DNA of 27,988 nt from a virus. Made by a program: the position numbers and the translations under genes. The stretch spans positions 1 through 27,988 of IMG/VR virus record IMGVR_UViG_3300035701_000218; one strand, given 5' to 3'. The notes below the pieces were generated by a model that did not search any database, was not told the origin of the DNA, and was given only the letters and a program-made list of their open reading frames with translations. This document shows, one piece after another, positions 3,895-22,905 of the stretch (positions are counted from its first letter, which is position 1; the number at the start of each line of letters is the position of its first letter).

Positions 3895-3990
3895 GTCACC
3901 AACTCCCGCGCTTGAGGGAGGGCCTAAGTCTAGTGGCTTAGGACCTTACACACTGCCGCCACAACGACACCCTTTGGCCCTCCCTCAAGC
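3868..3990 (+). repeat. Two crossing inverted repeats plus inner hairpin upstream of initiator gene
   Basis: Repeat A: GGCAGTGTGT (3868-3877) pairs with ACACACTGCC (3948-3957), extendable to 13 pairs with one G-T. Repeat B: GCTTGAGGGAGGGCC (3910-3924) pairs exactly with GGCCCTCCCTCAAGC (3976-3990). Repeat C: CCTAAG (3923-3928) pairs with CTTAGG (3937-3942). A and B interleave, so they would form a pseudoknot or be alternatives; B and C share two bases. Repeat B ends three bases before the AGGAG ribosome site of the gene at 4003. The 201-base gap 3802-4002 holds this structure and a candidate promoter and no credible gene. Confidence 0.75.
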
Positions 3991-4002
3991 CCAGGAGTTA
4001 CC

Positions 4003-8311: not shown

Positions 8312-8426
8312 TGGTGCGAGCGTCCGGGAATCGGCGACCGCATTGGCTGTGAAGTTTGGTGTTGCTGTTTCTACGATCAGAAGGGCGCGCGTTGGTGATA
8401 CTTGGACATGCGTGGGTAGTGCTTAG
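8304..8426 (+). CDS. 40-residue helix-turn-helix peptide
   Basis: ATG 8304 is preceded by an excellent ribosome site (GAAGGAGG) and overlaps the primase stop by eight bases. The peptide reads SVRESATALAVKFGVAVSTI and then RRARVGDTWTCVG, the pattern of small HTH domains (often written as reLAkkFGVs-sTIsrIrrGetW) found alone or fused to HNH endonucleases. The core Leu/Val/Ile positions are conserved. It could be a small DNA-binding regulator, or the remnant DNA-binding end of a lost homing endonuclease. The tail of the gene overlaps the first AGTG-N9-GGCGCAAGAC element. Coding status rests on the ribosome site and HTH pattern only. Confidence 0.6.
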   Translation: MFDGASVRESATALAVKFGVAVSTIRRARVGDTWTCVGSA

Positions 8427-8440
8427 TCGCGGCGCAAGAC
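8418..8440 (+). promoter_or_regulatory. Repeated element copy 1 (AGTG-N9-GGCGCAAGAC)
   Basis: AGTG at 8418-8421 and GGCGCAAGAC at 8431-8440 are separated by nine bases. The same two blocks with the same spacing recur three more times at gene-block boundaries. This copy lies 51 bases before ATG 8492 and overlaps the end of the HTH peptide gene. It may be a phage-specific promoter or another regulatory site. Confidence 0.6.
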
Positions 8441-8491
8441 AATGGTGACGAAGTGGACAAGGCGTGGCTTCGCTTAATAGGAGGGTGACGC

Positions 8492-9178
8492 ATGAAACGG
8501 TACTGGGATTTGACCGAGAAGGAACGCGCTGGGATGGCCGATGACGCGGTCACTGCACTCGAGAAGGTGGAGCTGATGGAGAATGGCTGTGTGCCGCTGA
8601 AGGAGCCGGTGTACGAGAAGGTAGATGAGGTCAAGGTTGAGACCCACCGGTATTACCGGCCGTCATTGATGAGTGGGTACGCGCATGAGCTGGACTTCGT
8701 CTTCGAGACCGAGGAGGAGGCCAGCCTGGCAGCGACATTGCATCCCTTTCATCTTGACCGCGATTACAAGAGCGACACTAAGTACATCGGCGACCAATGT
8801 GCCATCTCGATTACTATCGTGGACTTGCCGATGAAGAACGACATGGAGCGCGTCAAGGCGCGCATGATCGACTCACAAGGGGCGCGGGTGCGCAATGGCA
8901 AGATGCGAGAGCAGTACGACGCGGAGGTTGAGAAGCAGAGTAACATTCTGGTCAGAATGCGAGAGGATCGGAATCTGTGCCGGGGTAAGGTGGCTGTCAC
9001 GCTTCGCGTGCTCGAGACGTACGACGAGTACCTGCGGCTGTCCGATGGCGAGAGTAAGGTGGCTCAGAAGTTCCTGGCCAAGGCGTACCCGGCTGAGCAG
9101 GTCGAGGAGGCGTTCCTGTGGCATGATCGCAAGGACTTAGCAACGGAAGCGAAACTTATACGAGAGGAAGGGGTGTAA
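8492..9178 (+). CDS. Phage protein of unknown function
   Basis: The 228-residue protein starts at ATG 8492 with a strong TAGGAGGGTGACGC leader. I do not recognise a family. The N-terminal third is acidic and helical. Residues about 60-115 alternate beta-like and charged segments, including a Tyr-rich piece (HRYYRPSLMSGYAHELDFVF). The second half is highly charged and helical (about 120-228), compatible with a coiled coil. No membrane segment or catalytic motif is seen. It follows repeated element copy 1 and precedes another unknown gene and the DNA polymerase, so it probably belongs to the DNA metabolism operon. Confidence 0.78.
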   Translation: MKRYWDLTEKERAGMADDAVTALEKVELMENGCVPLKEPVYEKVDEVKVETHRYYRPSLMSGYAHELDFVFETEEEASLAATLHPFHLDRDYKSDTKYIGDQCAISITIVDLPMKNDMERVKARMIDSQGARVRNGKMREQYDAEVEKQSNILVRMREDRNLCRGKVAVTLRVLETYDEYLRLSDGESKVAQKFLAKAYPAEQVEEAFLWHDRKDLATEAKLIREEGV

Positions 9179-9180
9179 CA

Positions 9181-9861
9181 ATGGGTATCGCGCTATTTCA
9201 TTCATTCACGGTAGAGGCGGAAGTGCTGGGCAAGCTGCGGGCAGTGGAGTACCGGAACGGTGTGCTTACGTTCGGCGCGCTGACTGTGGCGGAGGCCGCA
9301 GTCTGCATAGACAGGGTGGCGGGTGCAGTGACGGAGGACGCGCGCATAGAGATGAAGCATGAGGAGACACTGGTGGGATTGACCCCTGGCACTTCGCAGT
9401 CATCGCCCGCCCCGGCGGTCATCCCCCTGGTCACAGCGACAAGTGGCATGGTGACTGTTACCGTGCCAACCGCTGTTGTCTCCAAGGCGGAGGAACCCGC
9501 CAGGGCGGCCAAGCCAGGCAAGCCATCATTGGATGAGGCGCGCGCGAGCATGGAGCGCAAGCGTGCCAAGGTGGATGCCGAGATCGCCGCCAAGGCCGAA
9601 TCAGCTCCAGTCCCCGCTACCTGCCAAATGTCTGCGGTCACTTTGCCGGTGGATGATGCCGCGTTGGTCGTCGAGCTGAACCAGTGCTCCAAGCTGCGTG
9701 ATGTCGTGGGTGTGCTACAGCGGCACGGCGTTGGTGAGGAGCCGGCCATCATAGCGGCATGTGAGCGCCTGCGCGACCAGGTGAACGTGCTCAAGGTCAT
9801 CCCCGATGTGCCCGGCCGCGTCAGGCGGACCCTGGTGGCGCTGAGTGGAATCACGGCATAG
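9181..9861 (+). CDS. Phage protein of unknown function with low-complexity middle
   Basis: The 226-residue protein starts at ATG 9181, two bases after the previous stop, with GAGAGGAAGGGG upstream. The first seventy residues look like a compact alpha/beta domain (HSFTVEAEVLGKLRAVEYRN). Residues about 75-150 are rich in Ala, Pro, Val and Thr and end in a Lys/Arg-Glu helix. The last seventy residues form a helical domain (VVELNQCSKLRDVVGVLQRH). This domain, linker, domain architecture suggests a replisome bridging protein, but that is inference; no known family is recognised. It sits five bases before the polymerase start. Confidence 0.75.
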   Translation: MGIALFHSFTVEAEVLGKLRAVEYRNGVLTFGALTVAEAAVCIDRVAGAVTEDARIEMKHEETLVGLTPGTSQSSPAPAVIPLVTATSGMVTVTVPTAVVSKAEEPARAAKPGKPSLDEARASMERKRAKVDAEIAAKAESAPVPATCQMSAVTLPVDDAALVVELNQCSKLRDVVGVLQRHGVGEEPAIIAACERLRDQVNVLKVIPDVPGRVRRTLVALSGITA

Positions 9862-9866
9862 CACTC

Positions 9867-12434
9867 ATGAAGGTACTACCACTTTACCCGCAACTTCCCG
9901 CGCCGGCCGTTGTCGGCGCCCCGCTGCTCCTTGATCACAACTGCGCCAGGTGCCCGCTCGGTAAGGGTAAGATTCGTCATCGGTGCATGGCGGCCGACGG
10001 TGACCCCGGAGGGTTGCTGGTGGTCAGTGACTATCCTGGGCAGACCGAGGACAACATCGGCCGGCCAATGGTGGGCGAGACCGGTGCGTATCTGCGTAGG
10101 ATGCTGAATCAGTGGTGGTCCGGCCCCGTGGCCATAGATAACGCGGTCCGGTGCGCACCTGGCAGGGCCAAGGTGCCAGCGTCGAGCGTGGGCGCGTGCC
10201 GTGGGTACTTGGCGCAGACCGTGCGCGAGGTGCACCCAACGCGGATTCTGGCCATGGGTGGCCACGCGATAGAGGCTATGTCTGATCGGTCACTGGCTGT
10301 GCTGAGCGTGCGCCGTGGATACTCATGGCTGCCCGCCGTTCCAGGTGAGCCGGCGGTCCCAGTGTTCTACTTACCCAACCCCGTGGTGGCATTGCGCAAC
10401 AGATTCATCCGATCGTGGATTGAGGAGGATCTTGAGTGGGCGTTGATGTGCAAGCCGCCGTTCGATCCGCCGTGGTCCGCAAAGCTTCATCTGGTAGAGA
10501 ACAAGCATGACGCGCTCGTTGCTGCTGAGGCGCTACGCGGCCATGTGGCGGCGTTCGATTCTGAGACCATGGGGCAGATGTGGGGCGAGTTCATCCTGCT
10601 TTGCTGTTCCTTCTGCGTGAGTAACTCCAATGAGGTTTGGACGTGGGGTGAGGTCGGCCTTACCGATCCAGGCGCGGTTGCTGTGTTACGTGAGCTGTTA
10701 CTGGACCGGGGGTTCAAGAAGGTGGGGGCTAACATCAAGTATGATCAGCTGGCTGTCCAGCACGGCCTTGGTGTGGAGATGCGCGGGGTGGTCGGCGACG
10801 TACGCCTGCTGCGCAAGCTGCTGGAGTCGGACGCCGACGGCGATCTTGAGACTATGGCCGAGCTGGTGGGCTGTGGCGGGCATAAGCAGGAGGCGCAGGA
10901 GGCACTGAAGCGGGCCGGCAAGTGCGTCACTGAGATGGCCAAGTGCAATACCGCCGGCAGGGTGCGGACCGGGTTGTTGTTTAGCGATGACACTCCAAAG
11001 CGCGTGGTGAAGGTGATCTCATCCATACGGCCGGGTTGCGAGGTGCAGTCGTATGCCTATGGCTTCCTGCCGCTCGACTTGCTTTACAGGTATAACGCTC
11101 GCGACACGCTGTCCACGTCATGGCTGCACGTGTTACAGGGGTTACGCGCTGGGCAGGACGATCCGAACATCACGCGCATCTATCGTAATGTGGTCATGCC
11201 GGCGGCCGAGGCCGTGAAGCAGATCGAGTGGTGGGGCGTGCCTGTGGATAGACAAGCCATCGACCAGCTTCACCTGTACCTGGCCGGCAAGGAGCGGGAG
11301 CTGCGTGACCGCCTTGCTGGATACGGCCTCACCGATCCGGGCTCGCTGCCGGAGGTTGGCGACGTGCTATTCAAGAAGCTGGGCCTGCCGCCGACCGAGA
11401 AGAACAAGACCGGCTACGTGCTCGACAAGGACGCGCTGTCCGGCCTGCGCGACGCGCACCCCGCCGTCTCCGACTTGATAGAGTGGCGTCGCATTACCAG
11501 GCTGGATGGCACGTATGCGCGTGGCCTTGCCGCTTGCATAAGGGCGGATGGGCGTGTTCATCCGTCCATACTTGTGGACGGAGCGCGTTCGGGGCGGATG
11601 AGCTGTCAGAATCCGAATCTGCAAAACATACCGCGTAACGAGGACGATGAGGGCAATGTGGAAGGGCAGTTACTTCGCAACTGCTTCATCGCGTCCCCCG
11701 GTCACGTGCTGCTCAACCTGGACTTCAGCCAGCTTGAGCTTCGGATTGCCGCCATGCTGTCCGGCGACGAGGTGATGGCCGGCATATTCAGGGCCGGCGT
11801 TGACTACCACCACAAGACTGCTGAGCTGATCGCGCCAATAGCCTGGGGCATCACCAATGAGCAGGTGACGAAGATCCATCGCACCAAGGCGAAGGTGGTC
11901 AACTTCTCCCTGGTCTACGGCAAGGGCGATCGTGGCCTGGCCAGGGATCTTGGGTGCTCCGTGGCTGAGGCCGCCCGCATCCGTGAGGCCATATTCGGCC
12001 AGTTCCGCAAGCTGAGTGCATGGATACGCGGGCGGGTTGACGAGACGCGGCGAACGGGATGTGCGTGGACGTGGTGGGACGGGGACCGCGCGCGGCGCAG
12101 GTGGCTGATAGAGATCGCGAACACTGGCGACGACGACCGCAGATCCGTGGCCGAGCACAGCAGCTTCAACACGCCAGTCCAGGGGACGGGCTCGGAGTAC
12201 CTGACAGCCACGCTCGGTAAGGTGGTGCCGTGGATACTCGACAATGGCATACCGGCCAAGCTGTGGGTGCCGGTCCACGACTCGCTGATGATGGAGGTGG
12301 AGGAGTCGGCGGTCGATGAGGTGGCGCATGAGGTCAGGAGCATGATGCTAAGCTGGCCGAGCATGGGCGTGCCGCTCGCGGTGGACGCGGAGGTTGGCCA
12401 ATCCTGGGGGGCGATGAGGAAGTACTGGTTTTGA
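9867..12434 (+). CDS. polA: DNA polymerase I-type (family A) with N-terminal UDG-like domain and 3'-5' exonuclease
   Basis: The 855-residue fusion has three parts. Residues 20-200 resemble family 4/5 uracil-DNA glycosylases: LLVVSDYPGQTED, then NIGRPMVGETGAYL, and cysteines at 26, 29, 96 and 111 that fit an iron-sulfur cluster. Residues about 215-420 form a DEDDy exonuclease with D231/E233, D293 (NIKYD) and Y409/D413 (YNARD). Residues about 430-855 form the polymerase: motif A LDFSQLELR with D619, motif B R672-x3-K676-x3-F680-x3-Y684 and motif C HDS with D805. All polymerase and exonuclease catalytic residues are present. The Phe at 680 is the dNTP-preferring form. UDG-polymerase fusions are known in SPO1-like phages, to my recollection. 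The glycosylase active-site motifs are degraded, so the domain may bind rather than cut. No clear ribosome site precedes ATG 9867. Confidence 0.95.
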   Translation: MKVLPLYPQLPAPAVVGAPLLLDHNCARCPLGKGKIRHRCMAADGDPGGLLVVSDYPGQTEDNIGRPMVGETGAYLRRMLNQWWSGPVAIDNAVRCAPGRAKVPASSVGACRGYLAQTVREVHPTRILAMGGHAIEAMSDRSLAVLSVRRGYSWLPAVPGEPAVPVFYLPNPVVALRNRFIRSWIEEDLEWALMCKPPFDPPWSAKLHLVENKHDALVAAEALRGHVAAFDSETMGQMWGEFILLCCSFCVSNSNEVWTWGEVGLTDPGAVAVLRELLLDRGFKKVGANIKYDQLAVQHGLGVEMRGVVGDVRLLRKLLESDADGDLETMAELVGCGGHKQEAQEALKRAGKCVTEMAKCNTAGRVRTGLLFSDDTPKRVVKVISSIRPGCEVQSYAYGFLPLDLLYRYNARDTLSTSWLHVLQGLRAGQDDPNITRIYRNVVMPAAEAVKQIEWWGVPVDRQAIDQLHLYLAGKERELRDRLAGYGLTDPGSLPEVGDVLFKKLGLPPTEKNKTGYVLDKDALSGLRDAHPAVSDLIEWRRITRLDGTYARGLAACIRADGRVHPSILVDGARSGRMSCQNPNLQNIPRNEDDEGNVEGQLLRNCFIASPGHVLLNLDFSQLELRIAAMLSGDEVMAGIFRAGVDYHHKTAELIAPIAWGITNEQVTKIHRTKAKVVNFSLVYGKGDRGLARDLGCSVAEAARIREAIFGQFRKLSAWIRGRVDETRRTGCAWTWWDGDRARRRWLIEIANTGDDDRRSVAEHSSFNTPVQGTGSEYLTATLGKVVPWILDNGIPAKLWVPVHDSLMMEVEESAVDEVAHEVRSMMLSWPSMGVPLAVDAEVGQSWGAMRKYWF

Positions 12435-12436
12435 CT

Positions 12437-12459
12437 AGTGCCCTCTTCCGGCGCAAGAC
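12437..12459 (+). promoter_or_regulatory. Repeated element copy 2 (AGTG-N9-GGCGCAAGAC)
   Basis: AGTG is at 12437-12440 and GGCGCAAGAC at 12450-12459, with the same nine-base spacing. It starts two bases after the polymerase stop and 42 bases before ATG 12502, in the only gap between the polymerase and the recombination gene block. Confidence 0.62.
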
Positions 12460-12501
12460 TACGTCATGTGATGAGCGGGATAACTAACTGAGGAGGCGGC
12501 G

Positions 12502-13002
12502 ATGGCGAAGCTGAACGATGTTGATGTGGATGAGTACCTGAAGAAGTCGGTGGACATCGAACCCATGGCGATCGAGGAGGAGTTCGTCCGCCTGCCCGGC
12601 GACCTGGCGTACTGGAACGAGCGATACGCCCGTGCCGTCAACGACTACCTGAAGGCCAAGGTGGGCCGTGAGCGCACTGAGTCGCGCCTGTACCTGGAGC
12701 AGCGCGAGCACCTGACGGCCAAGGCCAGCGTGGAGGCGGCCGAGGGCAAGAAGGGCGCCAAGGCTCCGACAGTGGATGAGATCAGATCGGCGGTCGCCGG
12801 CCACCGCGACATGGTGGAGGCCGAGGATGCCGAGCTGCTGACGGAGGTCGAGAAGGTGCGGCTGTACGGCGTGCTAGACGCCATACGCGCCAAGCGCGAC
12901 ATGCTGATCCAGATCGGCAGCCGGCAGCGCGTGGAGATGGAGCATGACCCGGTGATCCGCGAGGAGTCGCGGGTTCGCCGGCTTCAACGTGAGGGTGCAT
13001 GA
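12502..13002 (+). CDS. Coiled-coil phage protein, unknown function
   Basis: The 166-residue protein starts at ATG 12502 with GAGGAGGCGGCG upstream. It is almost wholly charged and helical (RYARAVNDYLKAKVGRERTE and the long stretch after residue 95), typical of a coiled-coil oligomer. It has no catalytic motif or membrane segment. It lies directly before the gp32-like SSB and the UvsX-like recombinase, a position where a recombination mediator analogous to T4 UvsY would be expected; this is a context guess, not a family match. The stop overlaps an ATG at 12999, which could also start the next protein. Confidence 0.8.
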   Translation: MAKLNDVDVDEYLKKSVDIEPMAIEEEFVRLPGDLAYWNERYARAVNDYLKAKVGRERTESRLYLEQREHLTAKASVEAAEGKKGAKAPTVDEIRSAVAGHRDMVEAEDAELLTEVEKVRLYGVLDAIRAKRDMLIQIGSRQRVEMEHDPVIREESRVRRLQREGA

Positions 13003-13037
13003 ACAACTGGGCCGGAGGCCCACGCAAGGAGAAGGAA

Positions 13038-13847
13038 ATGGCTGAGAGCACGAATTTGGTAAAGTGGGGTACCTACGACACGAGCGTGGCTGAGCATGAG
13101 CAGAAGGAGTGGGATCGCAGCAACAGCAAGTGGATGAAGCTGGCGGAGGGCTCAAGCACGGTGCGCATCCTGCCGCCGCCGCCGGACAAGAAGTCTCCGT
13201 TCCGCGTGGTGTGGACGCATTACGTGGAGATGCCGGGGTTGAAGGACGCATTGTCGATCGTGTGCCCCAACCGCGAGGCGCGCAAGCGCTGCCCGGTCTG
13301 CGAGCAGGCCGACCGCATGAAGGCCAGCGTGAGCCAGGCGGACCAGGAGCGCGCCAAAGGGCTATTCGCGCGCCGCCGCGTCTACGCCAACGTCATCGAC
13401 CGCGCCGACATGGACGCCGGCCCGAAGATCCTGGCGTTCGGCAAGACCATCCACGAGGCGCTGATCACGCTGCGCAAAGACCCGGATTGGGGTGACTTCT
13501 GTGACCCCATCAAGGGCTATGACATCGGCATCAAGCGCGCGGGCACGACCAAGAACGACACGGAGTACCAAGTGGTGCCCAAGATGACCTCGTCGCTGCA
13601 CGCCGACCAGGCGCAGATCATGAGCTGGATCGGACAGCAGGCCGATCTGGAGGTGGTCGCACTGTATGACGACTACGACACGATCCTTGCGAAGCTGCGT
13701 GGCGACACTCTCGGCCACGGGCAACAGGGGCCGACACCGGGTGCCTCACAGGCCGCTTCCTCTGGTCAACACGTCGGGGCCGACGGCAAGGCGCGTACCG
13801 TGGTCGACGCGGCCTCCGCGCCGCATGATGACGACAAACCGTTCTGA
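13038..13847 (+). CDS. ssb: Single-stranded DNA-binding protein, T4 gp32-like
   Basis: ATG 13038 has an ideal AAGGAG six bases upstream, so I prefer it to the coupled ATG 12999, which adds 13 residues. The 269-residue protein matches the gp32 plan: an N-terminal basic cooperativity segment, a core with H61, C76, C85 and C88 placed like the zinc ligands of T4 gp32 (H64, C77, C87, C90), and an acidic C-terminal tail ending DDDKPF that would recruit partner proteins. The middle has aromatic-rich beta strands for ssDNA contact. It would coat ssDNA at the fork and load UvsX. A Gly/Ala/Gln-rich linker (about 230-255) separates core from tail. The location before UvsX fits. Confidence 0.9.
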   Translation: MAESTNLVKWGTYDTSVAEHEQKEWDRSNSKWMKLAEGSSTVRILPPPPDKKSPFRVVWTHYVEMPGLKDALSIVCPNREARKRCPVCEQADRMKASVSQADQERAKGLFARRRVYANVIDRADMDAGPKILAFGKTIHEALITLRKDPDWGDFCDPIKGYDIGIKRAGTTKNDTEYQVVPKMTSSLHADQAQIMSWIGQQADLEVVALYDDYDTILAKLRGDTLGHGQQGPTPGASQAASSGQHVGADGKARTVVDAASAPHDDDKPF

Positions 13848-13961
13848 CACCAACACGCGCCTTATGGGGGCTAGCCGGGAGGCGTGGCGCGCGCCCGCAG
13901 GTAGGTACCACCTATAACCTGAATTGACAGGCCCGGCTTCGCCCCCGCCTTTGAGGGAGCC

Positions 13962-14993
13962 ATGACCAAGAAGCAACAGCAAGCCGACCTGGCGCAGCAG
14001 ATCGCGCAGAGGTCCATAGAGATCATACGTAAGAGGTTCGGTGCCACCGCCGCCATAGTGCCTGGCAAGGAGGATGCGCGGTCTGAGGTACGTGGCGTCA
14101 TCCCGTGCGGTATCGACGTGATAGACCGTTATGTGTGCGGGTGCGGGGGACTCCCGCAAGGCCGGCTGATTGAGATGTTCAGCGAGCCGGGCGTGATCAA
14201 GACCGGGCTGTGCTGGACCATGCTCGGCGGGTGCCAGCGGATGGGAGGGGTTGGGGCGTATTGCGACTGCGAGCAGTCCACCGACGGCAAGCGCATGCGC
14301 GTATTTGGCGTTGATCTCGATAGGCTCGTCCTGCAACAACCGTTGTCGCTGGAGGAGGCGCTTGAGCAAATGGAGTTGACGCTCGAGGAGCTGCCGGAGC
14401 CATCCCCGGTACCGTTCCTCCAGACGTGGGATTCCCTGGCCGAGTCCCCGTATAAGGGCGATCTGTCGAGCAGCGACTACGGCAAAGAGGCGGCGGACGA
14501 CCGGGCCAAGAAGATAGGCAGATTCTGCCGCGTGTCGGCCACGCTGGCCACGCGCAAGCAGGCCACGATCCTGATCGTGAACCAGACCAGGCAGAGGCGC
14601 GGCCTCATATTCGGCAGCCCTACCACGACGGTCGGCGGCGACGCGCTCAAGTTCTACGCGAGCCTGCGCCTGCAACTGTTCAACGGCAAGGCGCTCAAGG
14701 ACGAGCACGGCCAGCACATCGGCAAGGCGGTGACAGTGATGGCGTTCAAGACCAGATTCTCCCCGCCATTCCGTAAGGCCAAGGTGCGGCTGGACTATGC
14801 CCACGGGTGGGACAACCTCTGGAGCACCATCAGTCTAGCCAAGGACCTTGGCGTCGTGCCGAAGGGCGACAAGTACAACGTAGCCACCTACGAGAAGGCG
14901 GTGGCGGCGCTCGGGTGGGAGGGTGCGGCGCCGGCCGTGGAGCTGCGAAGCACCGAAGGCATAGAGGAGGAGATCAGCGATGGCGGAGAATAA
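13962..14993 (+). CDS. uvsX: UvsX/RecA-like strand-exchange recombinase
   Basis: The 343-residue protein starts at ATG 13962 with GAGGGAG upstream. The RecA core is recognisable from IPCGIDVIDRYVCGCGGLPQ and then GRLIEMF at residues 47-73. The P-loop SEPGVIKT (74-81) lacks the usual first Gly and the Gly before Lys; T4 UvsX also deviates at the latter position, so activity is still likely. CDCEQS (101-106) aligns with the RecA segment carrying the catalytic Glu, and ILIVNQTRQRRG with the RecA sensor Gln and loop L2. It would drive recombination-dependent repair or replication with the SSB upstream and SbcCD downstream. The 114-base gap before it holds no gene; I see no convincing promoter there. 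Confidence 0.88.
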   Translation: MTKKQQQADLAQQIAQRSIEIIRKRFGATAAIVPGKEDARSEVRGVIPCGIDVIDRYVCGCGGLPQGRLIEMFSEPGVIKTGLCWTMLGGCQRMGGVGAYCDCEQSTDGKRMRVFGVDLDRLVLQQPLSLEEALEQMELTLEELPEPSPVPFLQTWDSLAESPYKGDLSSSDYGKEAADDRAKKIGRFCRVSATLATRKQATILIVNQTRQRRGLIFGSPTTTVGGDALKFYASLRLQLFNGKALKDEHGQHIGKAVTVMAFKTRFSPPFRKAKVRLDYAHGWDNLWSTISLAKDLGVVPKGDKYNVATYEKAVAALGWEGAAPAVELRSTEGIEEEISDGGE

Positions 14994-15570: not shown

Positions 15571-15692
15571 ATGCAAATAACCTGGCTGGCCAGGAGCTGC
15601 GTCGCCGGGCCGAGGATAGGGGAAACCTTGCGGTTCTGCTGGTGGCGGTAGCGGCATTAGTATACGCCATTCTTTATGAGGTGCTGCGATGA
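15554..15692 (+). repeat. 17-bp direct repeat flanking a tiny membrane gene
   Basis: ATGAGGTGCTGCGATGA occurs at 15554-15570 and again at 15676-15692. Each copy contains the end of one gene, a weak ribosome site and the ATGA stop/start overlap of the next. As a result the methyltransferase and the tiny protein both end in the residues EVLR. The repeat period is 122 bases, exactly one small gene. Confidence 0.85.
15567..15692 (+). CDS. 41-residue single-pass membrane protein
   Basis: ATG 15567 overlaps the methyltransferase stop (ATGA) and the stop overlaps ATG 15689 in the same way. The peptide has a basic N-terminal part (QELRRRAEDRG) and one hydrophobic helix at about 20-37 (NLAVLLVAVAALVYAILY), with a short tail. 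Positive residues before the helix predict an inside N-terminus. Short single-pass proteins in phages often act on host membrane or defence functions, but no role is evident here. The gene is bounded by a 17-bp direct repeat, suggesting insertion or duplication of a small cassette. Confidence 0.75.
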   Translation: MNANNLAGQELRRRAEDRGNLAVLLVAVAALVYAILYEVLR

Positions 15693-16321
15693 TCTGTCCA
15701 AAGTGTAAGGGCGCGAAGACGTTGTCGGGGCTGTGGGATGGTGTTGACGCCACCGGCAAGCGCATCGGCGGTGCTGGCGCATGGTCGTGTTCCACGTGCA
15801 ACGGCACGGGCGAGGTCACCCAGGAGCAGAATGATGACATCGTTGCCGGCCACAAGATGCGTGAGGACCGCGTGGGGCGCGGCCTGTCACTCCGGGCGGA
15901 GGCCGAGCGTCTGGGCGTTCCGGAGATGGAGCTGGCGAAGATGGAGCGCGGCCTCGTGCCAGTGCTCGGAGCTGGCGCAAGACAACAGGCGCAAGGAGGC
16001 GCCATGCCCACGATCAAGGAGCTTCAGGCCACGGCGCACGATATAGCGCTGACCCATGGTTGGTGGGACCGGCCGCACAACGACGGCGAGATGCTGATGC
16101 TGATGGTATGCGAGCTCGCCGAGGCGCATGAGGCGGTGCGGCTGGGCAATCCCGCATCGGAGCACATCCCGCAGCACTCGGCGTTCGCAGAGGAGCTGGC
16201 GGATGTGGTCATCTACGCGATGAACCTGGCGCATGAGCGGCAGATAGACCTGGAGCGCGTGCTGCTGGACAAGATAGAGTTCAACCGTGGCCGCCCGCAC
16301 AAGCATGGCAAGGCGCCATGA
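15689..16321 (+). CDS. Zinc-finger/HTH protein continuous with a MazG-like domain
   Basis: One open frame encodes 210 residues. Residues 1-40 hold CPKC (3-6) and CSTC-NGTG (34-41), a DnaJ-like zinc-finger pattern. Residues 55-92 (SLRAEAERLGVPEMELAKME) look like a helix-turn-helix. From Met106 onward the sequence is a MazG-like nucleotide pyrophosphohydrolase domain with ELAEAHEA and EELADVVIY, the paired acidic motifs that bind Mg. The join contains repeated element copy 3 and a ribosome site before Met106, so two proteins may be made, or two once-separate genes now read through. Start ATG 15689 overlaps the small membrane gene. Confidence 0.7.
   Translation: MICPKCKGAKTLSGLWDGVDATGKRIGGAGAWSCSTCNGTGEVTQEQNDDIVAGHKMREDRVGRGLSLRAEAERLGVPEMELAKMERGLVPVLGAGARQQAQGGAMPTIKELQATAHDIALTHGWWDRPHNDGEMLMLMVCELAEAHEAVRLGNPASEHIPQHSAFAEELADVVIYAMNLAHERQIDLERVLLDKIEFNRGRPHKHGKAP
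15961..15983 (+). promoter_or_regulatory. Repeated element copy 3 (AGTG-N9-GGCGCAAGAC)
   Basis: AGTG is at 15961-15964 and GGCGCAAGAC at 15974-15983. It lies inside the open frame of the zinc-finger/MazG protein, 20 bases before the internal ATG 16004. The other copies mark gene boundaries, so this one supports a separate MazG gene start. Confidence 0.55.
15988..16003 (+). promoter_or_regulatory. Ribosome site in a hairpin loop before internal MazG start
   Basis: GGCGC (15988-15992) pairs with GCGCC (15999-16003), leaving AAGGAG exposed as the loop, five bases before ATG 16004. This is a well-placed Shine-Dalgarno for an internal start. Confidence 0.55.
16004..16321 (+). CDS. MazG-like pyrophosphohydrolase (internal start version)
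   Basis: This is an alternative product of the frame above, beginning at ATG 16004 with AAGGAG five bases upstream, 105 residues long. It is a complete single MazG-like domain: helix one with ELAEAHEA, then EELADVVIYAMNLA, the E-x2-E and E-x2-D pairs that coordinate Mg, then a basic tail (NRGRPHKHGKAP). Such enzymes hydrolyse (d)NTPs or alarmones to monophosphates; phage forms are proposed to adjust nucleotide or ppGpp pools. The length equals that of stand-alone phage MazG-like proteins, so this may be the original gene. Ribosome profiling or N-terminal peptides would decide. Confidence 0.55.
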   Translation: MPTIKELQATAHDIALTHGWWDRPHNDGEMLMLMVCELAEAHEAVRLGNPASEHIPQHSAFAEELADVVIYAMNLAHERQIDLERVLLDKIEFNRGRPHKHGKAP

Positions 16322-16368
16322 TGTCCTGGATCGCGGATCAACTAGAGCAGTACCCATAGGAGGAGGAT

Positions 16369-16584
16369 TTGTACGACAATGACAGCATCGTTGGCAAGGT
16401 AAAGGCGTTCACCGCCAGGGCCGTGCTGATTGCGCTTGACGGCGGCAAGGAACATTGGGTACCTCGCAGCCAGATCGAGGAGGAGCCGAACGACGAGTAC
16501 CTGACCTCGCTGCGGGATGACGGCATCGAGGCGGAGTTCACCATACCTGGGTGGCTATCAGAGAAGATAGCGAACGGAGAGTGA
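16369..16584 (+). CDS. Small beta-rich phage protein
   Basis: The start is TTG 16369, supported by a very strong ribosome site (TAGGAGGAGGA). The 71-residue product has a compact beta pattern at 6-38 (SIVGKVKAFTARAVLIAL, then GGKEHWVPRSQIEE) and an acidic helix-to-strand end (EAEFTIPGWLSEK). Short proteins with a similar HWVPxSQI segment are common in phages and look like small SH3/OB-type folds; I recall no proven function. A 13-codon open frame at 16318-16359 precedes it and is probably only spacer. It lies between the MazG domain and the SbcD block. Confidence 0.75.
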   Translation: MYDNDSIVGKVKAFTARAVLIALDGGKEHWVPRSQIEEEPNDEYLTSLRDDGIEAEFTIPGWLSEKIANGE

Positions 16585-16586
16585 CC

Positions 16587-16742
16587 ATGAAGGAAGGCAA
16601 GACGAAGCACGGGACAGGGCGCGCGAAGCGCCGTGGCACGAAGGAGTGGAACGTGGAGCGGGATGACGGCGAGGGCGGGGTTACGACGTTGCCGAACAGG
16701 ACCACGCGCACGCAGGTCGGGTGCTGCCTGCGTATTGCCTGA
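16587..16742 (+). CDS. Small basic protein, probably truncated by in-frame TGA
   Basis: ATG 16587 begins two bases after the previous stop. The 51-residue product is basic at its N-terminus (KEGKTKHGTGRAKRRGTKEW) and ends LRIA at a TGA (16740-16742). The same frame continues after that TGA for 29 more codons and ends in an ATGA overlap with the SbcD gene, as if the original protein were 81 residues. The ribosome site is weak (GAACGGAGAGTG). No family is recognised. The truncation may be a real mutation, a sequencing error or a programmed readthrough. Confidence 0.5.
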   Translation: MKEGKTKHGTGRAKRRGTKEWNVERDDGEGGVTTLPNRTTRTQVGCCLRIA

Positions 16743-16832
16743 CCGAACGGGCGGTACTTCTGGCGCGCGAACCGGTGGCTGCGCATGGGCAGGATGCGCT
16801 TCACCGCCAGTGCGCATAGGGATGCGGAATGA
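16743..16832 (+). pseudogene. Downstream remainder of the TGA-interrupted small gene
   Basis: Continuing in frame after TGA 16740-16742 gives PNGRYFWRANRWLRMGRMRF and nine further residues before TGA 16830-16832. The residue choice (aromatic and Arg-rich) looks protein-like, and the final stop overlaps the SbcD start as ATGA, the coupling style used across this window. Without suppression this segment would not be translated from the upstream start. Confidence 0.45.
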
Positions 16833-17899
16833 CCAGGATCGCCGTTGTGAGTGACGTGCACCTCGGCAACCATGCCCGGCACGGCGGCAACGTGGCGTCG
16901 GGGCTGAATGGACGGTGCCGAATGGCATTGAAGGTACTCGGCGACGCGCTTGTCTTGGCGCGCGAGCGCAAGGCCGACCGCTTCATTGTGGCCGGGGACC
17001 TGTTTGACACCGCCAACCCTCCTCCGCAGCTCATCGCCGCCGCGCAGGAGCTGTTTACCGACAATGGCATTCATCCCGATCTGCTACTCGGCAACCACGA
17101 GATGAACAGCGATGCGAAGGGCGACCACGCCCTCGGGCCGATGTGCCCGGTGGCGCAGGTTATCGACATGCCGACCCTGGTTGGGGATGTGGTGTACGTG
17201 CCATTCTGGCCAGGCCCGGCGCGCGAGTGGCTGCCGAAGGCGGTGGCGATGGCGATGTCGGGCAAGGCGCTGGCGAAGGCGCTCGTCATCCACCTCGGCA
17301 TCGAGACTGGGGACGAGCCGGCGTGGCTGCGCGGGTGTGATGACGCGGTGCCTGCCGCCCTGCTCAAGGAGCTGTGCGCCAAGTACGGGTTCAAGGCGGT
17401 GTTCGCCGGCAACTGGCATGGGGCACGCATGGTTAACGCGCCCGATCCGCTGCTAATCCAATGTGGCGCCCTCGTGCCCACCGGATTTGATAACCCCGGC
17501 GTCGACCATTACGGTGCCATGTTCTTCTACGATACGGCGACCGGTGAGGGTGGACATGTCACTCTGTCCGGCCCGCGTTTCATCAACATGCGCTGGCCGA
17601 GCGATCTGCCCCCGGCTGATGGCAATGTGCTGCACCTAAGCGTCGTCGCGGAGGCCGGCAAAGTTGAGGAGGCGCGCGCCGTGTGCGAGCATTGGCATAG
17701 CGCTGGCTCGATCGCCGTGTTCGATGTGCTGCCTGACGCCGAGCAGGTGCGCCAGGCGGCCGGAGAGGCGGCGAGGGCTGCCTCAACCCCTGCCACGCTG
17801 CGAGAGTCGGTGGCTGAGTATGTCACCGCAATGCCGCTGCCGGATGATGTTATCCGCGAACAGGTCCTGGCTGGCGTGACCGGCTACCTCAAGCTATAG
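16829..17899 (+). CDS. sbcD: SbcD/gp47-like DNA repair nuclease (metallophosphoesterase)
   Basis: The 356-residue protein carries the calcineurin-type metal motifs of Mre11/SbcD: SDVHLG (D9, H11), GDLFD (D57), GNHE (N89, H90), HLG (H155) and GNWHG near 194-198, where the usual GHxH is GNWH. It would be the endo/exonuclease half of a complex with the SbcC-like ATPase encoded at 18156, processing DNA ends and hairpins for recombination, as T4 gp47 does. The last hundred residues form the expected capping and SbcC-binding region. ATG 16829 lies in an ATGA overlap; a small membrane gene separates it from sbcC. Confidence 0.92.
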   Translation: MTRIAVVSDVHLGNHARHGGNVASGLNGRCRMALKVLGDALVLARERKADRFIVAGDLFDTANPPPQLIAAAQELFTDNGIHPDLLLGNHEMNSDAKGDHALGPMCPVAQVIDMPTLVGDVVYVPFWPGPAREWLPKAVAMAMSGKALAKALVIHLGIETGDEPAWLRGCDDAVPAALLKELCAKYGFKAVFAGNWHGARMVNAPDPLLIQCGALVPTGFDNPGVDHYGAMFFYDTATGEGGHVTLSGPRFINMRWPSDLPPADGNVLHLSVVAEAGKVEEARAVCEHWHSAGSIAVFDVLPDAEQVRQAAGEAARAASTPATLRESVAEYVTAMPLPDDVIREQVLAGVTGYLKL

Positions 17900-17908
17900 G
17901 GGGCGCAT

Positions 17909-18178
17909 ATGACGAATGACCAGCTGGAGACAATGAAGATTGCCGGGATGGTCATGCTTGGCATACTGTTGCTCGCGCTATTGGCGACCGGCGGCAAGCG
18001 CAGATGTGACAAGCACTTCCGCGATGAGGTTGAGGACTTCGCGCGGCACTTCCCCGGCGTCTGTATGATCTGCTCTTACTACCGCTACGGGGTGTTGCAC
18101 GGGTTTATCTCATCAGAGTGCAAACCACCGGCGCACCGCTGCATCGAGGACCACCATGATCCACGCCCGCAAGATTAA
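17909..18178 (+). CDS. Small membrane protein with Cys-rich tail
   Basis: The 89-residue protein starts at ATG 17909 after GGGGGCGC. A hydrophobic helix at about 10-27 (IAGMVMLGILLLALLATG) is followed by a basic stop-transfer (GKRR) and a soluble part with five Cys (residues about 33-82: CDKHF, CMICSYY, ECKPP, HRC), which could bind metal. The predicted topology has the Cys domain in the cytoplasm. It is placed between the sbcD- and sbcC-like genes and overlaps sbcC by 23 bases, so it is co-expressed with them. No family or function is recognised. Confidence 0.7.
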   Translation: MTNDQLETMKIAGMVMLGILLLALLATGGKRRCDKHFRDEVEDFARHFPGVCMICSYYRYGVLHGFISSECKPPAHRCIEDHHDPRPQD

Positions 18179-19754
18179 GCTCGAAACCACGTACGCCAAG
18201 TGTGACATCGCATTGCCAGAGCGTGGTTTGGTCGTTGTGACCGGCCCGAACGGGATCGGCAAGAGCAGCATGGTTGAGGGCATGGGGATCGCGCTGTGGG
18301 GTGAGACGCTGCGCGGGGCCGACCCGTGGGACGGCGAGAAGGGGTCGGCGATGGCCGGTGTCGACACTACGGCCGGCGCCGTCACCGCCGAACGTACGCG
18401 CATGGCCAAGGGGTCGAAGCTGTCTTGGTCACTGGGTGGCGCGGACCCGGTCAAATACGAGAACACGACCAAGGCGCAGCAGGCTCTCACCCAAGCTGTT
18501 GGCGAGTTCGACCTGTGGCGACGGACACACGTGTTCAGCGCGGCTGACAGCGCGCACTTCACGCTCGCCACTGACGGGCAGCGCAAGCGCCTGCTCGAGA
18601 CCATCCTCGGTCTTGACAAGTTCGACCTGGCGCTGGAGCGCTGCCGCCTCGACAAGCATAAGGCCGAGACCGACGGCGCGGAGGCGTGCTCCAACCTTCG
18701 GCACGCACTGTCACAGATTGGGACGGCGACCGAATGGCTTGACACGGCCAAGAAACAGCTGGAGATCATCGGCGAGCCGCCTGATGTCACCGCCTTGGCG
18801 AGCCGCCGCACGAAGTTACAGGCGGCCGTTGATGGCTGCCAAGACGAGTTGGAGCAACTGAATGCCAACCTGGCCAGGAGCCAGCACGCCAGCGGCACGC
18901 ATGACGCGCACGCGGGGGAGATCGAGCGCAGGCTGTCCACGCTGGCTGGTGACGCGTGCGACCGGTGCGGGCAGGTCATACCGGAAACGCTGCGCGATAG
19001 GCTGCGCAAGGCCGCGCACAAGGAGCGCGAGGCCGGCGAGCTGCTGCGCGCGGAGGCGCGCGTGTCGAACGTCGCCATGATCGCACAGCGGGAGGATCTG
19101 CAAGAGGAGCTGCGCATGATGCTGCGGGAGCAGTCGGCCATAAATCAGATGGTGGCTGTGGCCGACGGCGTGGTGAAACAGCTGGCCGGCGCCAGGGAGC
19201 TGATGGCCAAGGCGGAGAAGTCGATGGCTGACGCTTTGGAGGCCAAGGACGTGGCTGTCGCCAATACGGACGAGGCATCCGCGCGGGTACATGTGTTGAA
19301 GGCCATTGAGAATGTGCTCGGGCTGAAGGGCGTGCGGGCGCACATCCTTGGCAGGGCGCTTGCCGGTGTCGGCGATGTGGCGAACGCCTGGCTGGCGCGG
19401 CTGTCGGGCGGGGTGATCAAGCTGCGGCTCGAGGAGCGCGGCGACGCGCTTGCGCTCGAGGTGGACGTGGGCGGCGGCAAGTGGCAGCCGTACAGGGCCG
19501 CGAGCGGCGGACAGCGCAGGCGTGTTGATGTGGCCCTGCTCATGGCATTGTCGGAGGTGTCGGCCGCCGCCGCAGGACAGTCGCCCGGCACGCTCTGGTT
19601 CGATGAGGTGTTCGATGCGCTGGACGGCGACGGGGTGCGTGCGATATGCGACGCGCTGCCGGACCTGGCTGCCGACCGCGCCGTCGTCGTCATCACGCAC
19701 AACGCGGCGCTCGCCGCCGGCCTCCCGGCCGCCATGCGCTGGTCGCCGCCATAG
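18156..19754 (+). CDS. sbcC: SbcC/gp46-like SMC-family ATPase
   Basis: The 532-residue protein has Walker A GPNGIGKSS at 30-38, a Q-loop region after it, a zinc-hook CDRC at 268-271 flanked by coiled-coil segments (about 165-265 and 275-400), the ABC signature ASGGQRRR near 449-456, Walker B TLWFDEVFDALD near 477-488 and the H-loop VITHN near 511-515. It is about half the length of E. coli SbcC and close to T4 gp46, so the coils are short. It would dimerise through the zinc hook and drive the nuclease encoded at 16829. ATG 18156 overlaps the small membrane gene. Confidence 0.93.
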   Translation: MIHARKIKLETTYAKCDIALPERGLVVVTGPNGIGKSSMVEGMGIALWGETLRGADPWDGEKGSAMAGVDTTAGAVTAERTRMAKGSKLSWSLGGADPVKYENTTKAQQALTQAVGEFDLWRRTHVFSAADSAHFTLATDGQRKRLLETILGLDKFDLALERCRLDKHKAETDGAEACSNLRHALSQIGTATEWLDTAKKQLEIIGEPPDVTALASRRTKLQAAVDGCQDELEQLNANLARSQHASGTHDAHAGEIERRLSTLAGDACDRCGQVIPETLRDRLRKAAHKEREAGELLRAEARVSNVAMIAQREDLQEELRMMLREQSAINQMVAVADGVVKQLAGARELMAKAEKSMADALEAKDVAVANTDEASARVHVLKAIENVLGLKGVRAHILGRALAGVGDVANAWLARLSGGVIKLRLEERGDALALEVDVGGGKWQPYRAASGGQRRRVDVALLMALSEVSAAAAGQSPGTLWFDEVFDALDGDGVRAICDALPDLAADRAVVVITHNAALAAGLPAAMRWSPP

Positions 19755-19758
19755 GGGA

Positions 19759-19787
19759 TTGGCGAACTGTGCGCCCTATGCTATCCT
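19759..19787 (+). promoter_or_regulatory. Putative sigma70 promoter before the ParB/Vsr/methylase block
   Basis: TTGGCG (19759-19764) is separated by 17 bases from TATCCT (19782-19787), and TG precedes the latter at the extended -10 position. It lies in the 54-base gap after sbcC, 22 bases before ATG 19809, whose ribosome site is AAGGAG. Confidence 0.5.
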
Positions 19788-19808
19788 TCAAACGACAAGG
19801 AGAGTGAA

Positions 19809-20345
19809 ATGGAAATCACCAAGATCGCGATCGAGACGCTGAGCGAGGACCCGAACAACGTGCGCCTCCACAACGAGCGCAACATGGAGTCGATCAGGAG
19901 CAGCCTGACCAATTTCGGGCAGGTCGAGCCGCTCGTCGTGCAGCGCTCGACGATGCGTGTCATCGGTGGCAACGGCAGGCTCCGCGCCATGCGCGACCTC
20001 GGATGGCAAGAGGCGTCATGCGCCCTTATCGACATAGACGACGCCAGGGCGCGCGCGCTCGGCATCGTGCTTAACAGGACGGCCGATCTCGCGGAGTGGG
20101 ACTACGGCGCACTCGCGCGCTCGCTCGAGGAGCTGACCGCCGAGTTGCCGGAGGAGTTGTCCGAATCACTCGGATATGACCATCGCGAGATCGCGATGTT
20201 GCGCGGATGGGCCGATGGCGCGGCCGAGCAGGCCGCCGGCGCAGCTGGTGACGATAAACAAGCCGATGGCGCGCGCGAGCTTACGCCCGACGGCGACCTC
20301 GGGGGCCAGCAATATGTCTGCCCGCGTTGCGGAATGCGGTTCTGA
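19809..20345 (+). CDS. ParB/sulfiredoxin-domain protein
   Basis: The 178-residue protein starts at ATG 19809 with AAGGAG upstream. Residues 1-95 match the ParB-type nuclease/CTPase fold: LSEDPNNVRLHNERNMESI near 11-29, FGQVEPLVVQ near 36-45 and the box VIGGNGRLRAM near 51-61. The C-terminal part has an acidic helical stretch and ends with CPRCGMRF, half of a zinc knuckle. Phage ParB-like proteins of this type commonly sit next to DNA methyltransferases, as here; they may be nucleases or DNA-binding partners, not partition proteins. No ParA is present. It is the first gene of a block with Vsr-like and C5-methylase genes. Confidence 0.85.
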   Translation: MEITKIAIETLSEDPNNVRLHNERNMESIRSSLTNFGQVEPLVVQRSTMRVIGGNGRLRAMRDLGWQEASCALIDIDDARARALGIVLNRTADLAEWDYGALARSLEELTAELPEELSESLGYDHREIAMLRGWADGAAEQAAGAAGDDKQADGARELTPDGDLGGQQYVCPRCGMRF

Positions 20346-20353
20346 GGCGTGCC

Positions 20354-20770
20354 ATGGACAGGGTCGATAAGGCGACAAGAAGCGGGATCATGCCACGCAT
20401 ATGCGGCGCCGGCACCGGCCCGGAGCGAGAGGCCGCGAGGCTGCTCGGGGCCGAGACGCGCGGGCTGCGCGCCAACGCGAGGGACCTGCCCGGCAGCCCG
20501 GACCTAGTCGACGACGCCGCGCGCGTCGCGGTGTTCGTCCACGGCTGTTTCTGGCACGGGTGCCCGAAGCACTACAGGGCGCCGAGGTCCAACGAGTCGT
20601 TCTGGTCCGGCAAGCTGGTCGGCAACGTCAGGCGCGACCGCAGGGCGGCGCGAAGGCTCAGGAGGATGGGATGGTCGGTGATCACGGCGTGGGAATGCGC
20701 GCTGGCTGCGGGGACGGCGAGAGCGGCTCGGTCGATGGACCGCCGCCGTGGCGCGGGCCCTGGCTGCTGA
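20354..20770 (+). CDS. vsr: Vsr-like very short patch repair endonuclease
   Basis: The 138-residue protein from ATG 20354 aligns well with E. coli Vsr: DKATRSGIMPRI near 5-16, LPGSPDLV with the catalytic Asp50, VFVHGCFWHGC (60-70) with the His and zinc Cys residues, then FWSGKLVGNVRRDRR and WSVITAWECAL. In bacteria Vsr nicks T:G mismatches left when 5-methylcytosine deaminates, and its gene overlaps the Dcm methylase, exactly the order here, with a 100-base overlap. It could therefore protect phage DNA from methylation-linked mutation, or act as a restriction-type nuclease on unmodified DNA. Length is slightly short of E. coli Vsr (156). Confidence 0.92.
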   Translation: MDRVDKATRSGIMPRICGAGTGPEREAARLLGAETRGLRANARDLPGSPDLVDDAARVAVFVHGCFWHGCPKHYRAPRSNESFWSGKLVGNVRRDRRAARRLRRMGWSVITAWECALAAGTARAARSMDRRRGAGPGC

Positions 20771-21771
20771 GCCAGCTCGCGCGCGTCAGGTCCAACGGAC
20801 TGCGCGTCCTCTCGACGTTCTCGGGCGGCGGCGGTTCCTCCATGGGCTACAAGCTCGCCGGCTATAAGGTGATCGGCGCCGTCGAGATGGACAAGGGCAT
20901 GGCTGACACGTATTCGCGCAACCTTTCTGGCACGCCGGTGTTCGTCGAGACGGTCGCCGAGTTCGCCAAGCGTGACGAGTCGACGCTGCCGGAGGGCGCG
21001 GCGTCATTTGACGTGCTTGACGGCTCGCCGCCGTGCAGCGTGTTCTCCATGGCCGGCAATCGGGAGAAGAAATGGGGTTCGGCGCATATGTTCCGCGAGG
21101 GCGCGGCCGTGCAGCGGCTTGACATGCTGTTCTTCGACCTCATTGATCTCGCCGGGCGCCTGCGCCCGCGCGTTGTCGTCGCCGAGAACGTCAAGGGCAT
21201 CGTCATCGGTGACGCGAAGGGGTACGCGCTCGACGTCATCGACGCGTTCAGTGACATAGGTTATGACTGCCAGGTGTTCCTGCTCAACTCCGCCTTGATG
21301 GGCGTGCCGCAACGCCGCAAGCGCGTGTTCTTCGTTGCGCGGCGATCCGATCTTGGGTTGCCGAAGCTGACGTTGTCGTTCAATGAGGCGATAATCACCG
21401 CGTCCGAGGCGATCGCCGGCGTGCCGCCGCCGGCGCGGCATCGGTGGCTGTCGGCCACGCTTAAGGGGTTGTGGGCGCTGACGCCGCACGGTTCAAGCCT
21501 CAGCAAGGCTCACCCCAAAGGCAGTTTGTTCAACTGGATGAAGGCCGCGCCTGACAGACCGTTCCCGACCCTGACCGCGCGCAGCTCGAGCATCCCACTT
21601 CATTGGGTAGAGCCGCGCAAATTGTCCGACGCCGAGTGCGCCCGCGCGCAGACGTTCCCGGACGACTACACGTTTATTAGCCCACCAGGCTACTATGTTT
21701 GCGGCATGAGCGTCCCCCCGAGGATGCTACAGCGCTTGTCGCTCAGGATCGCGCAATGGCTCGGCGCCTGA
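20671..21771 (+). CDS. DNA (cytosine-5) methyltransferase
   Basis: The best start is ATG 20671, with AGGAGG just upstream and inside the vsr coding region; the frame is open much further upstream but overlaps vsr entirely. The 366-residue enzyme shows motif I FSGGGGSSMGYKLAGY, motif IV GSPPCS with catalytic Cys122, motif VI ENVKG (E172), motif VIII QRRKR and a C-terminal motif X (GMSVPPRML). The target-recognition segment lies between about 235 and 315, too variable to read the site. It methylates cytosine in DNA, with the adjacent Vsr-like nuclease as a functional partner. The first fifty residues are low-complexity and may be a short extension. Confidence 0.95.
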   Translation: MVGDHGVGMRAGCGDGESGSVDGPPPWRGPWLLSQLARVRSNGLRVLSTFSGGGGSSMGYKLAGYKVIGAVEMDKGMADTYSRNLSGTPVFVETVAEFAKRDESTLPEGAASFDVLDGSPPCSVFSMAGNREKKWGSAHMFREGAAVQRLDMLFFDLIDLAGRLRPRVVVAENVKGIVIGDAKGYALDVIDAFSDIGYDCQVFLLNSALMGVPQRRKRVFFVARRSDLGLPKLTLSFNEAIITASEAIAGVPPPARHRWLSATLKGLWALTPHGSSLSKAHPKGSLFNWMKAAPDRPFPTLTARSSSIPLHWVEPRKLSDAECARAQTFPDDYTFISPPGYYVCGMSVPPRMLQRLSLRIAQWLGA

Positions 21772-21793
21772 CGCCGGCGAGGAGAACTTGACC

Positions 21794-22162
21794 ATGGACC
21801 CATTAACTGACCTGCTGCTGAAGCAGGAGAACCTATACCTGATGGCGGCCGTGTGGGTGCTGCTCGAGACGTTGCAGCGCGCTCTTCCCGAGAACGTAAC
21901 CTCGCACTCGGTTTGGGTTCGGCTTCAACCCGTCATGCCAGTCATCCTCTGTCTCGGCGGCGTTTGGCTGCCATACGTCATGGCGCGTAACGCTCCTATC
22001 AGCCAGCACGTTATGGTTGGCCTCATCCTCGGGTACGCTGTCGGGCACAGCCGCAAGATCGTGCTTCAGGGTGTGCTGGGGCAGGACGCGCGCATACCGC
22101 ATGGACAGGCCGTGCCCCCACCGGCGCCTCCGCAACCCAAGGACCAAAGAGGCGTGCCATGA
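21794..22162 (+). CDS. Holin-like membrane protein
   Basis: ATG 21794 is chosen over TTG 21788 because GAGGAG sits nine bases before the ATG. The 122-residue protein has three hydrophobic helices (about 13-30, 46-64 and 71-88) and a soluble Pro/Gln-rich tail (VPPPAPPQPKDQ), the plan of a three-pass holin. It would form membrane lesions at lysis. The family cannot be named. The stop overlaps the next start (ATGA), and the next two proteins are spanin-like, which supports a lysis cassette; no endolysin is seen in this window, so other membrane roles remain possible. Confidence 0.6.
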   Translation: MDPLTDLLLKQENLYLMAAVWVLLETLQRALPENVTSHSVWVRLQPVMPVILCLGGVWLPYVMARNAPISQHVMVGLILGYAVGHSRKIVLQGVLGQDARIPHGQAVPPPAPPQPKDQRGVP

Positions 22163-22485
22163 TACGTGTCCTGCACTGGATCGCTGACTACTGGTATATC
22201 CCCCTTCTCACGATTGGCGCGTTGGCCGTGCTCATACTGTGGATCATTCATCGCCGTGGTGATCCGCCGGTTGACCTTCTGAACGTTGAGCTACAGGCAA
22301 TCAAGGCCGGGCGTGACGCGCGTGAGGCCAAGGCTGAGCTTGGCGCCGAACGGGCGGTCGCCAAAGTGGAGGCCGACCACAAAGACGCCGTGGATAAGCT
22401 GGACGCCGACCAGCGCGCCCAGGCGGAGGAGCTGAGAGATGACCCTGTTGCCCTTGCTCGTTTCCTTGTCCGTGCTGGCCGCTGA
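22159..22485 (+). CDS. Putative i-spanin-like (Rz-type) protein
   Basis: The 108-residue protein has one N-terminal membrane helix (about 10-30, WYIPLLTIGALAVLILWIIH) and a long charged periplasmic coiled coil (about 45-100, KAGRDAREAKAELGAERAVA). That is the shape of Rz-type inner-membrane spanins, which span the periplasm to disrupt the outer membrane at the end of lysis. The next gene overlaps its 3' end in another frame, like Rz/Rz1 pairs. ATG 22159 lies in an ATGA overlap with the holin-like gene. Sequence families for spanins are too variable to confirm; the call rests on shape and context. Confidence 0.55.
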   Translation: MIRVLHWIADYWYIPLLTIGALAVLILWIIHRRGDPPVDLLNVELQAIKAGRDAREAKAELGAERAVAKVEADHKDAVDKLDADQRAQAEELRDDPVALARFLVRAGR

Positions 22486-22876
22486 CCCAACCCCGGAATG
22501 CGATCCGGCGATGCCCACCCTGTGCGCGGCGCCCCTGCGCCTCGGGCAACCGGCGCCCTACGCTGGGCAGCTGCTCAACACGGAGCTGGCCCTGCGCCTC
22601 GGTCAGAAGGCCGACCGCTGCGACGCGTACGTGCGCATCGAGATCGACTATGCCGCGCGCATGGCGCAAGTCCAGCTGGACCTGGAACGCCAGAAGCACC
22701 GCATTGATCTGGACGCGGCGTCGGACACGCTTGCGGCCACGCGGCGCTACTACCAGCAGCAGCTCGACGACTCTCCCTCCCCCTGGCTGGTGGGCGGCCT
22801 GGCCGTTGCCGCGACCGTGGCTGTGACCGTGCTCGCGGTCTGGGCTACCAGTTCACTCGTCCATGCGGTACAATGA
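22439..22876 (+). CDS. Exported membrane-anchored protein, possible spanin partner
   Basis: The 145-residue protein overlaps the preceding gene by 47 bases in another frame. It has a signal-peptide-like N-terminus (MTLLPLLVSLSVLAA, cleavage likely after AA), an exported helical middle (about 60-115, QLDLERQKHRIDLDAASDTL), and a C-terminal membrane helix at about 120-140 (WLVGGLAVAATVAVTVLAVW). The out-of-frame overlap resembles Rz/Rz1, but there is no lipobox Cys, so it is not a standard o-spanin; signal peptide plus C-terminal membrane helix recalls unimolecular spanins. GAGG lies upstream of ATG 22439. Function remains unproven. Confidence 0.6.
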   Translation: MTLLPLLVSLSVLAADPTPECDPAMPTLCAAPLRLGQPAPYAGQLLNTELALRLGQKADRCDAYVRIEIDYAARMAQVQLDLERQKHRIDLDAASDTLAATRRYYQQQLDDSPSPWLVGGLAVAATVAVTVLAVWATSSLVHAVQ

Positions 22877-22882
22877 CCCCCT

Positions 22883-22905
22883 AGTGGCGCTCGGCGGCGC
22901 AAGAC
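22883..22905 (+). promoter_or_regulatory. Repeated element copy 4 (AGTG-N9-GGCGCAAGAC)
   Basis: AGTG is at 22883-22886 and GGCGCAAGAC at 22896-22905. It starts six bases after the stop of the upstream gene and lies seven bases before ATG 22913, or 35 before a TTG with an AGGAGG ribosome site. Confidence 0.6.

Follow-up and report, generated by a model that had tools for sequence, protein, structure and literature searches.

What is the two-part sequence that recurs at gene-block boundaries in this phage DNA, and what might read it? The window, i.e., the whole stretch of DNA analysed, is a 27,988-base fragment that constitutes the entire public record, and the scan is confined to it. As the initial annotation had reported, a motif scan of the window finds four exact copies of AGTG-N9-GGCGCAAGAC, all on the + strand; there are none on the − strand, and a reversed-pattern control gave 0 matches in the window.

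Copy 1, AGTGCTTAGTCGCGGCGCAAGAC (8418-8440, + strand), follows the primase gene and, behind that, an unlisted HTH-like ORF of 40 codons (8304-8426), whose stop codon it overlaps; downstream are gene 8492-9178 and the polymerase block. Copy 2, AGTGCCCTCTTCCGGCGCAAGAC (12437-12459, + strand), is 2 nt past the polymerase stop codon and precedes gp12502, SSB and UvsX. Copy 3, AGTGCTCGGAGCTGGCGCAAGAC (15961-15983, + strand), is inside ORF 15689-16321, in the linker between its HTH and MazG parts and 20 nt before the internal MazG start at 16004. Copy 4, AGTGGCGCTCGGCGGCGCAAGAC (22883-22905, + strand), is 6 nt past a stop codon, and a membrane-protein ORF starts 7 nt further on, at ATG 22913. The distances from copies 1-4 to the next start are thus 51, 42, 20 and 7 nt. 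These positions bear out the earlier description of three copies at or just past stop codons and 7 to 51 bases before the next start (51, 42 and 7 nt), and of one just before a probable internal MazG start, which has a good ribosome site; they also agree with its view that the copies head the polymerase, SSB/UvsX, MazG/SbcCD and membrane blocks. Copies 1, 2 and 4 are wholly intergenic, and intergenic DNA makes up 8% of the window. A weak candidate copy with 3 mismatches, AGTGCAAACCACCGGCGCACCGC (18117-18139, + strand), is found 16 nt before the start of the SbcC-like gene; a single match of such quality is near chance expectation, and it may be chance. With regard to ORF 15689-16321 itself, a zinc-ribbon/HTH domain and MazG share one frame, and the internal ATG at 16004 has an AAGGAGG ribosome site; two products may possibly be made from this one frame.

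Three of the four copies have TAGTG as their left box, C is the next base also in three, and the inner nine bases vary freely. By itself GGCGCAAGAC is unexceptional. It has 5 copies in the window, the fifth (5349-5358) in coding sequence and without AGTG, as previously noted, and other 10-mers recur equally often because of codon bias. Chance, or the recent duplication of a short sequence, might then be thought to account for the repeat, given that one copy of the 10-mer is coding and that 10-mers with 5 copies are common in simulated sequences. The two-part arrangement is different. The window has one pair of a 10-mer and a 4-mer that keeps its offset through four copies; of 750 sequences simulated by Markov models (order 2-5) or codon shuffles, 0 have one, with any comparable two-part repeat counted, and AGTG at any other spacing from GGCGCAAGAC gives at most one match each in the window. 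The free variation of the inner nine bases is also unlike a recent duplication, and relatives show a similar geometry with different letters. An origin by chance or duplication is thus highly improbable.

A function at the RNA level was also considered. All four window copies can form a 5-bp hairpin, GUGCY-N7-GGCGC followed by AAGAC, which might act in the messenger in antitermination, processing or translation. However the fold is forced by the constant letters GTG and CGC, position 5 breaks a pair in copy 4, and no such shared hairpin is found in the analogous elements of relatives G008, G012, L233 and G014. A hairpin conserved throughout the family is excluded, as it is not common to the relatives' elements, and an RNA element of this kind is very unlikely in the window as well. 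Searches of the window for tRNAs and Rfam families found nothing.

In agreement with the annotation, which had judged the sites unlike sigma70 promoters, no site resembling the sigma70 consensus TTGACA-N16-18-TATAAT is present at the four copies. The sigma-like protein that it had placed at 1439-2017 is seen to be a two-domain ECF-like sigma factor with sigma2 and sigma4 (188 aa, + strand), with its start revised to 1451 (1451-2017; Pfam Sigma70_r2, E 4e-8). That this protein reads the sites, as the annotation suggested, is plausible. All seven contigs that reach the locus, the window included, encode there a protein of ~174-204 aa with Sigma70 region 2, and a profile of the family sigma proteins matches sigmaE across sigma2 and sigma4. 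The predicted structure consists of two helical domains whose arrangement is not fixed, and ECF sigma factors in the PDB are among its top Foldseek matches, with weak E-values (best 0.02, none below 0.001). The sigma proteins of relatives are only 19-30% identical to that of the window. Just downstream of the sigma gene, a perfect 18-bp inverted repeat (2024-2041 and 2049-2066, within 2020-2066) surrounds a strong sigma70-like promoter, TTGCGC-17-TATAAT, with boxes at 2020-2025 and 2043-2048, upstream of an HTH-like ORF (2081-2338); this looks like a self-regulated promoter.

No close relative of the window was found, and the window polymerase or UvsX alone as bait recovered no relatives. Searches with alignments, first of UDG-polymerases and then of gp12502-family proteins, led to ~20 syntenic contigs with proteins mostly 30-55% identical to those of the window. 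Their conserved gene order is vWA, DUF6744, sigma, helicase, DnaB, primase, polymerase, gp12502, SSB, UvsX, SbcD, SbcC, ParB. The polymerase (9867-12434 in the window) has an N-terminal extension resembling a family-4 uracil-DNA glycosylase fused to a PolA-type polymerase, a fusion common to relatives. Several further sequence features were also seen in these genomes. In the window, a long noncoding gap (3802-4002) with nested inverted repeats (CTTGAGGGAGGGCC, 3911-3924, and GGCCCTCCCTCAAG, 3976-3989) precedes gene 4003-5553 and is a possible origin or control region. The replication regions of two relatives carry iteron-like arrays of short direct repeats (L238:2477-2690, AATCAAAAGCGATA; L222:3215-3370, AATCAAGTTGGTCC), and the G016 contig (L253) has an intergenic array of ~73-bp units containing TTGAGCTGACTGATGTTTGGCGGATGGATCGAAGG at oriented positions 36643-36961. 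The intergenic SSB/UvsX stretch of L130 (5110-5330) contains a tRNA T-arm-like sequence, GCAGGTTCGACACCTGC, in which ARAGORN found no tRNA.

The annotation had named loss of the motif in close relatives as refuting; the relatives found are all distant ones. The exact window sequence is lost in the distant relatives, being absent as a repeated family from all those scanned, and an analogous element is present in several of them, not in all. Exact-motif matches elsewhere in IMG/VR are ascribed to chance: in the stricter scan, and among the matches listed in the first, they are single copies per contig with no common gene set. One analog is in G008 (83.7 kb), where TRAWWTC-N9-GCGCAAGRAT and close variants, on the coding strand throughout, are found between the primase and the next gene, between polymerase and gp12502, after SbcD, after ParB, and in two further gaps. 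The strand counts are 6 vs 0, with none in the reversed control. The G008 version has only 17 matching stretches in 2.9 million viral contigs; 4 are in the G008 contig itself, and every other matching contig has one. G012 has TAAWWCG-N9-GCGNAAGAG both at the primase/next-gene boundary and between polymerase and gp12502, and L224 has GCGTAAG at the same two places. GCCCAAGAGYA is found at four places in G009, these two among them. L233 carries one copy, at the polymerase/gp12502 boundary, and one of two related copies in G011 is also there. Thus this boundary carries an analogous element in G008, G009, G011, G012, L224 and L233.

A pooled pattern, TRAWW-N11-G[CT]NNAAGR, matches the family contigs 12 times on the + strand and 0 times on the − strand. 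In gaps it has 8 matches at its own spacing, the best of 17 spacings, and at most 2 at any other; the pattern was derived in part from these same sites, and without G008 the gap contrast is 3 vs at most 2. Independent support for it comes from the L233 site, the G012 self-comparison and the G008 strand counts. Beyond the elements of individual genomes, family-wide k-mer enrichment gave nothing, and EM motif finding in gaps was captured by Shine-Dalgarno sequences. G008, G012 and G001 also have a separate family of canonical sigma70-type promoters, TTGAC-N17/18-TA. The total strand bias, the location at block boundaries, the analogous elements and this separate sigma70-like class in relatives together support well the earlier proposal of a phage-specific family of promoters or regulatory sites.

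Within that proposal, the elements are probably a class of promoters read by the phage-encoded ECF-like sigma, with box sequences that drift and positions that stay, a reading drawn from the sequences and from analogy with characterized phages. The left box (TAGTGC in the window; TAAWWTC in relatives) would be -35-like, and the right box would be -10-like in its 3′ portion (GCGCAAGAC in the window; GCGCAAGGAT and GCGNAAGAG in relatives), with ~15-16 bp between the two. Host RNA polymerase, guided by the ECF-like sigma (1451-2017), would initiate shortly downstream of the element and in this way transcribe the polymerase, SSB/UvsX, MazG/SbcCD and membrane blocks after an early phase driven by host sigma70. 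We infer that the sigma reads the sites, and likewise the assignment of boxes, the start points and the timing. The spacing of the boxes is fixed, but to arrive at 15-16 bp one has to treat AGAC/AGGA as the -10-like box; under this putative assignment, transcription at window site 4 and at four of the G008 sites would begin at the start codon or right beside it. What is found here, a recurring non-sigma70 motif before phage gene blocks and oriented with transcription, is what characterizes phage-sigma promoters, and the phage encodes its own sigma factor, as do phages of the 7-11 and phiEco32 type. Against the sigma-promoter reading, the right box has a high GC content for DNA that would have to melt, and the repeats seen in G001, G015 and G016 are other ones. 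Gap self-comparison also revealed no clear element family in G010, G014 and G015, yet G010 and G014 encode the sigma.

The boxes can be divided in another way: the AT-rich left box alone would be the -10, and GCGCAAG would fall at the very beginning of the transcript, as a conserved leader or as a signal for translating the gene that follows. TAATTT/TAAAAT is indeed the AT-rich part of the element in genomes of 68% GC, and promoters of the phiEco32 sigma have a single box, tAATGTAtA (PMC8948821). The start codon in G008 is 16 nt from GCGCAAG at four sites, and a translational role of the G008 right box is possible because it contains AAGGA, as far from the start codon as a ribosome site would be. 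However the window left box, TAGTGC, is not AT-rich, and the window right box holds no ribosome site, three of the window sites having a separate one further downstream. The right box is moreover better conserved than the left in G009 and L224. This division of the boxes is rather unlikely.

The sites could also be operators for a DNA-binding protein, i.e., a repressor, an activator or a stoperator-like system, and not promoters at all. Two short boxes ~1.5 helical turns apart would suit such a protein, HTH proteins are encoded nearby (2081-2338; 8304-8426), and the element is asymmetric, as mycobacteriophage stoperators are (PMC9283540). Every copy, however, is oriented with transcription and heads a gene block, there is almost no sigma70-like site nearby to be controlled, the 28-kb fragment yielded no identifiable immunity repressor, and the sites are few. 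An operator function is considered unlikely. Promoters of T7-type single-subunit RNA polymerases are likewise set aside, because the free nine-base middle stretch is unlike them.

Two mycobacteriophage repeat families invite comparison. The Start-Associated Sequences of Cluster K phages are short asymmetric repeats, mostly in one orientation, that precede the starts of non-structural genes and can be overlapped by upstream stop codons; they differ in being 3-7 bp from the start and in containing the ribosome site AGGAG (PMC3203893). The fit fails, since the window copies are 7-51 nt away and have no AGGAG in the element. The stoperators of Cluster A phages are asymmetric sites spread over the genome, and they differ in being bound by an immunity repressor, none of which was identified in the window, and in being many sites with a single short box, compared with four sites of two boxes here (PMC9283540, PMC6550527). 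The elements thus fit poorly with either identity.

Promoters read by a phage sigma, the preferred reading, have their closest parallel in the Salmonella phage 7-11, whose sigma SaPh711_gp47 reads late promoters GTAAtg-(16)-aCTA with the start 6-9 bp away (PMC8948821). As proposed here for the window, 7-11 combines a phage sigma that has region 4 with promoters of two boxes where operons begin and with separate early promoters of the sigma70 type, and its boxes have other sequences than those of relatives at similar places in the genome (PMC8948821). The arrangement of two promoter classes and a phage sigma is proved for 7-11 (PMC8948821). The window differs in its boxes (TAGTGC ... GCGCAAGAC), in host and phage lineage, for which the tests made show no relationship, and in that its sites head replication blocks and are known from sequence alone. 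The middle and late promoters of phiEco32, read by gp36, are similar in combining a phage sigma with a phage-specific motif at gene blocks (PMC8948821, PMC4331800), but they have the single box tAATGTAtA and gp36 is without region 4, unlike the two boxes and sigma4-like domain of the window. Between phiEco32 and 7-11 themselves the promoters differ in sequence but lie at similar genome positions, and the two sigmas share only 15% identity (PMC8948821).

Tentatively, it is possible that this lineage relies on an ECF-like sigma of its own and on a GC-rich promoter of two boxes, which would vary in sequence between phages but keep its positions before conserved replication blocks; some transcripts would then begin at the start codon itself and be leaderless. 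Promoters have been mapped for few phage sigma factors. The lineage described here offers diverged sigmas, and for several of these there are candidate sites at corresponding gene boundaries. With this set, simple in vitro transcription could test the co-evolution of sigma and promoter, as well as how uncultured phages control their replication genes.
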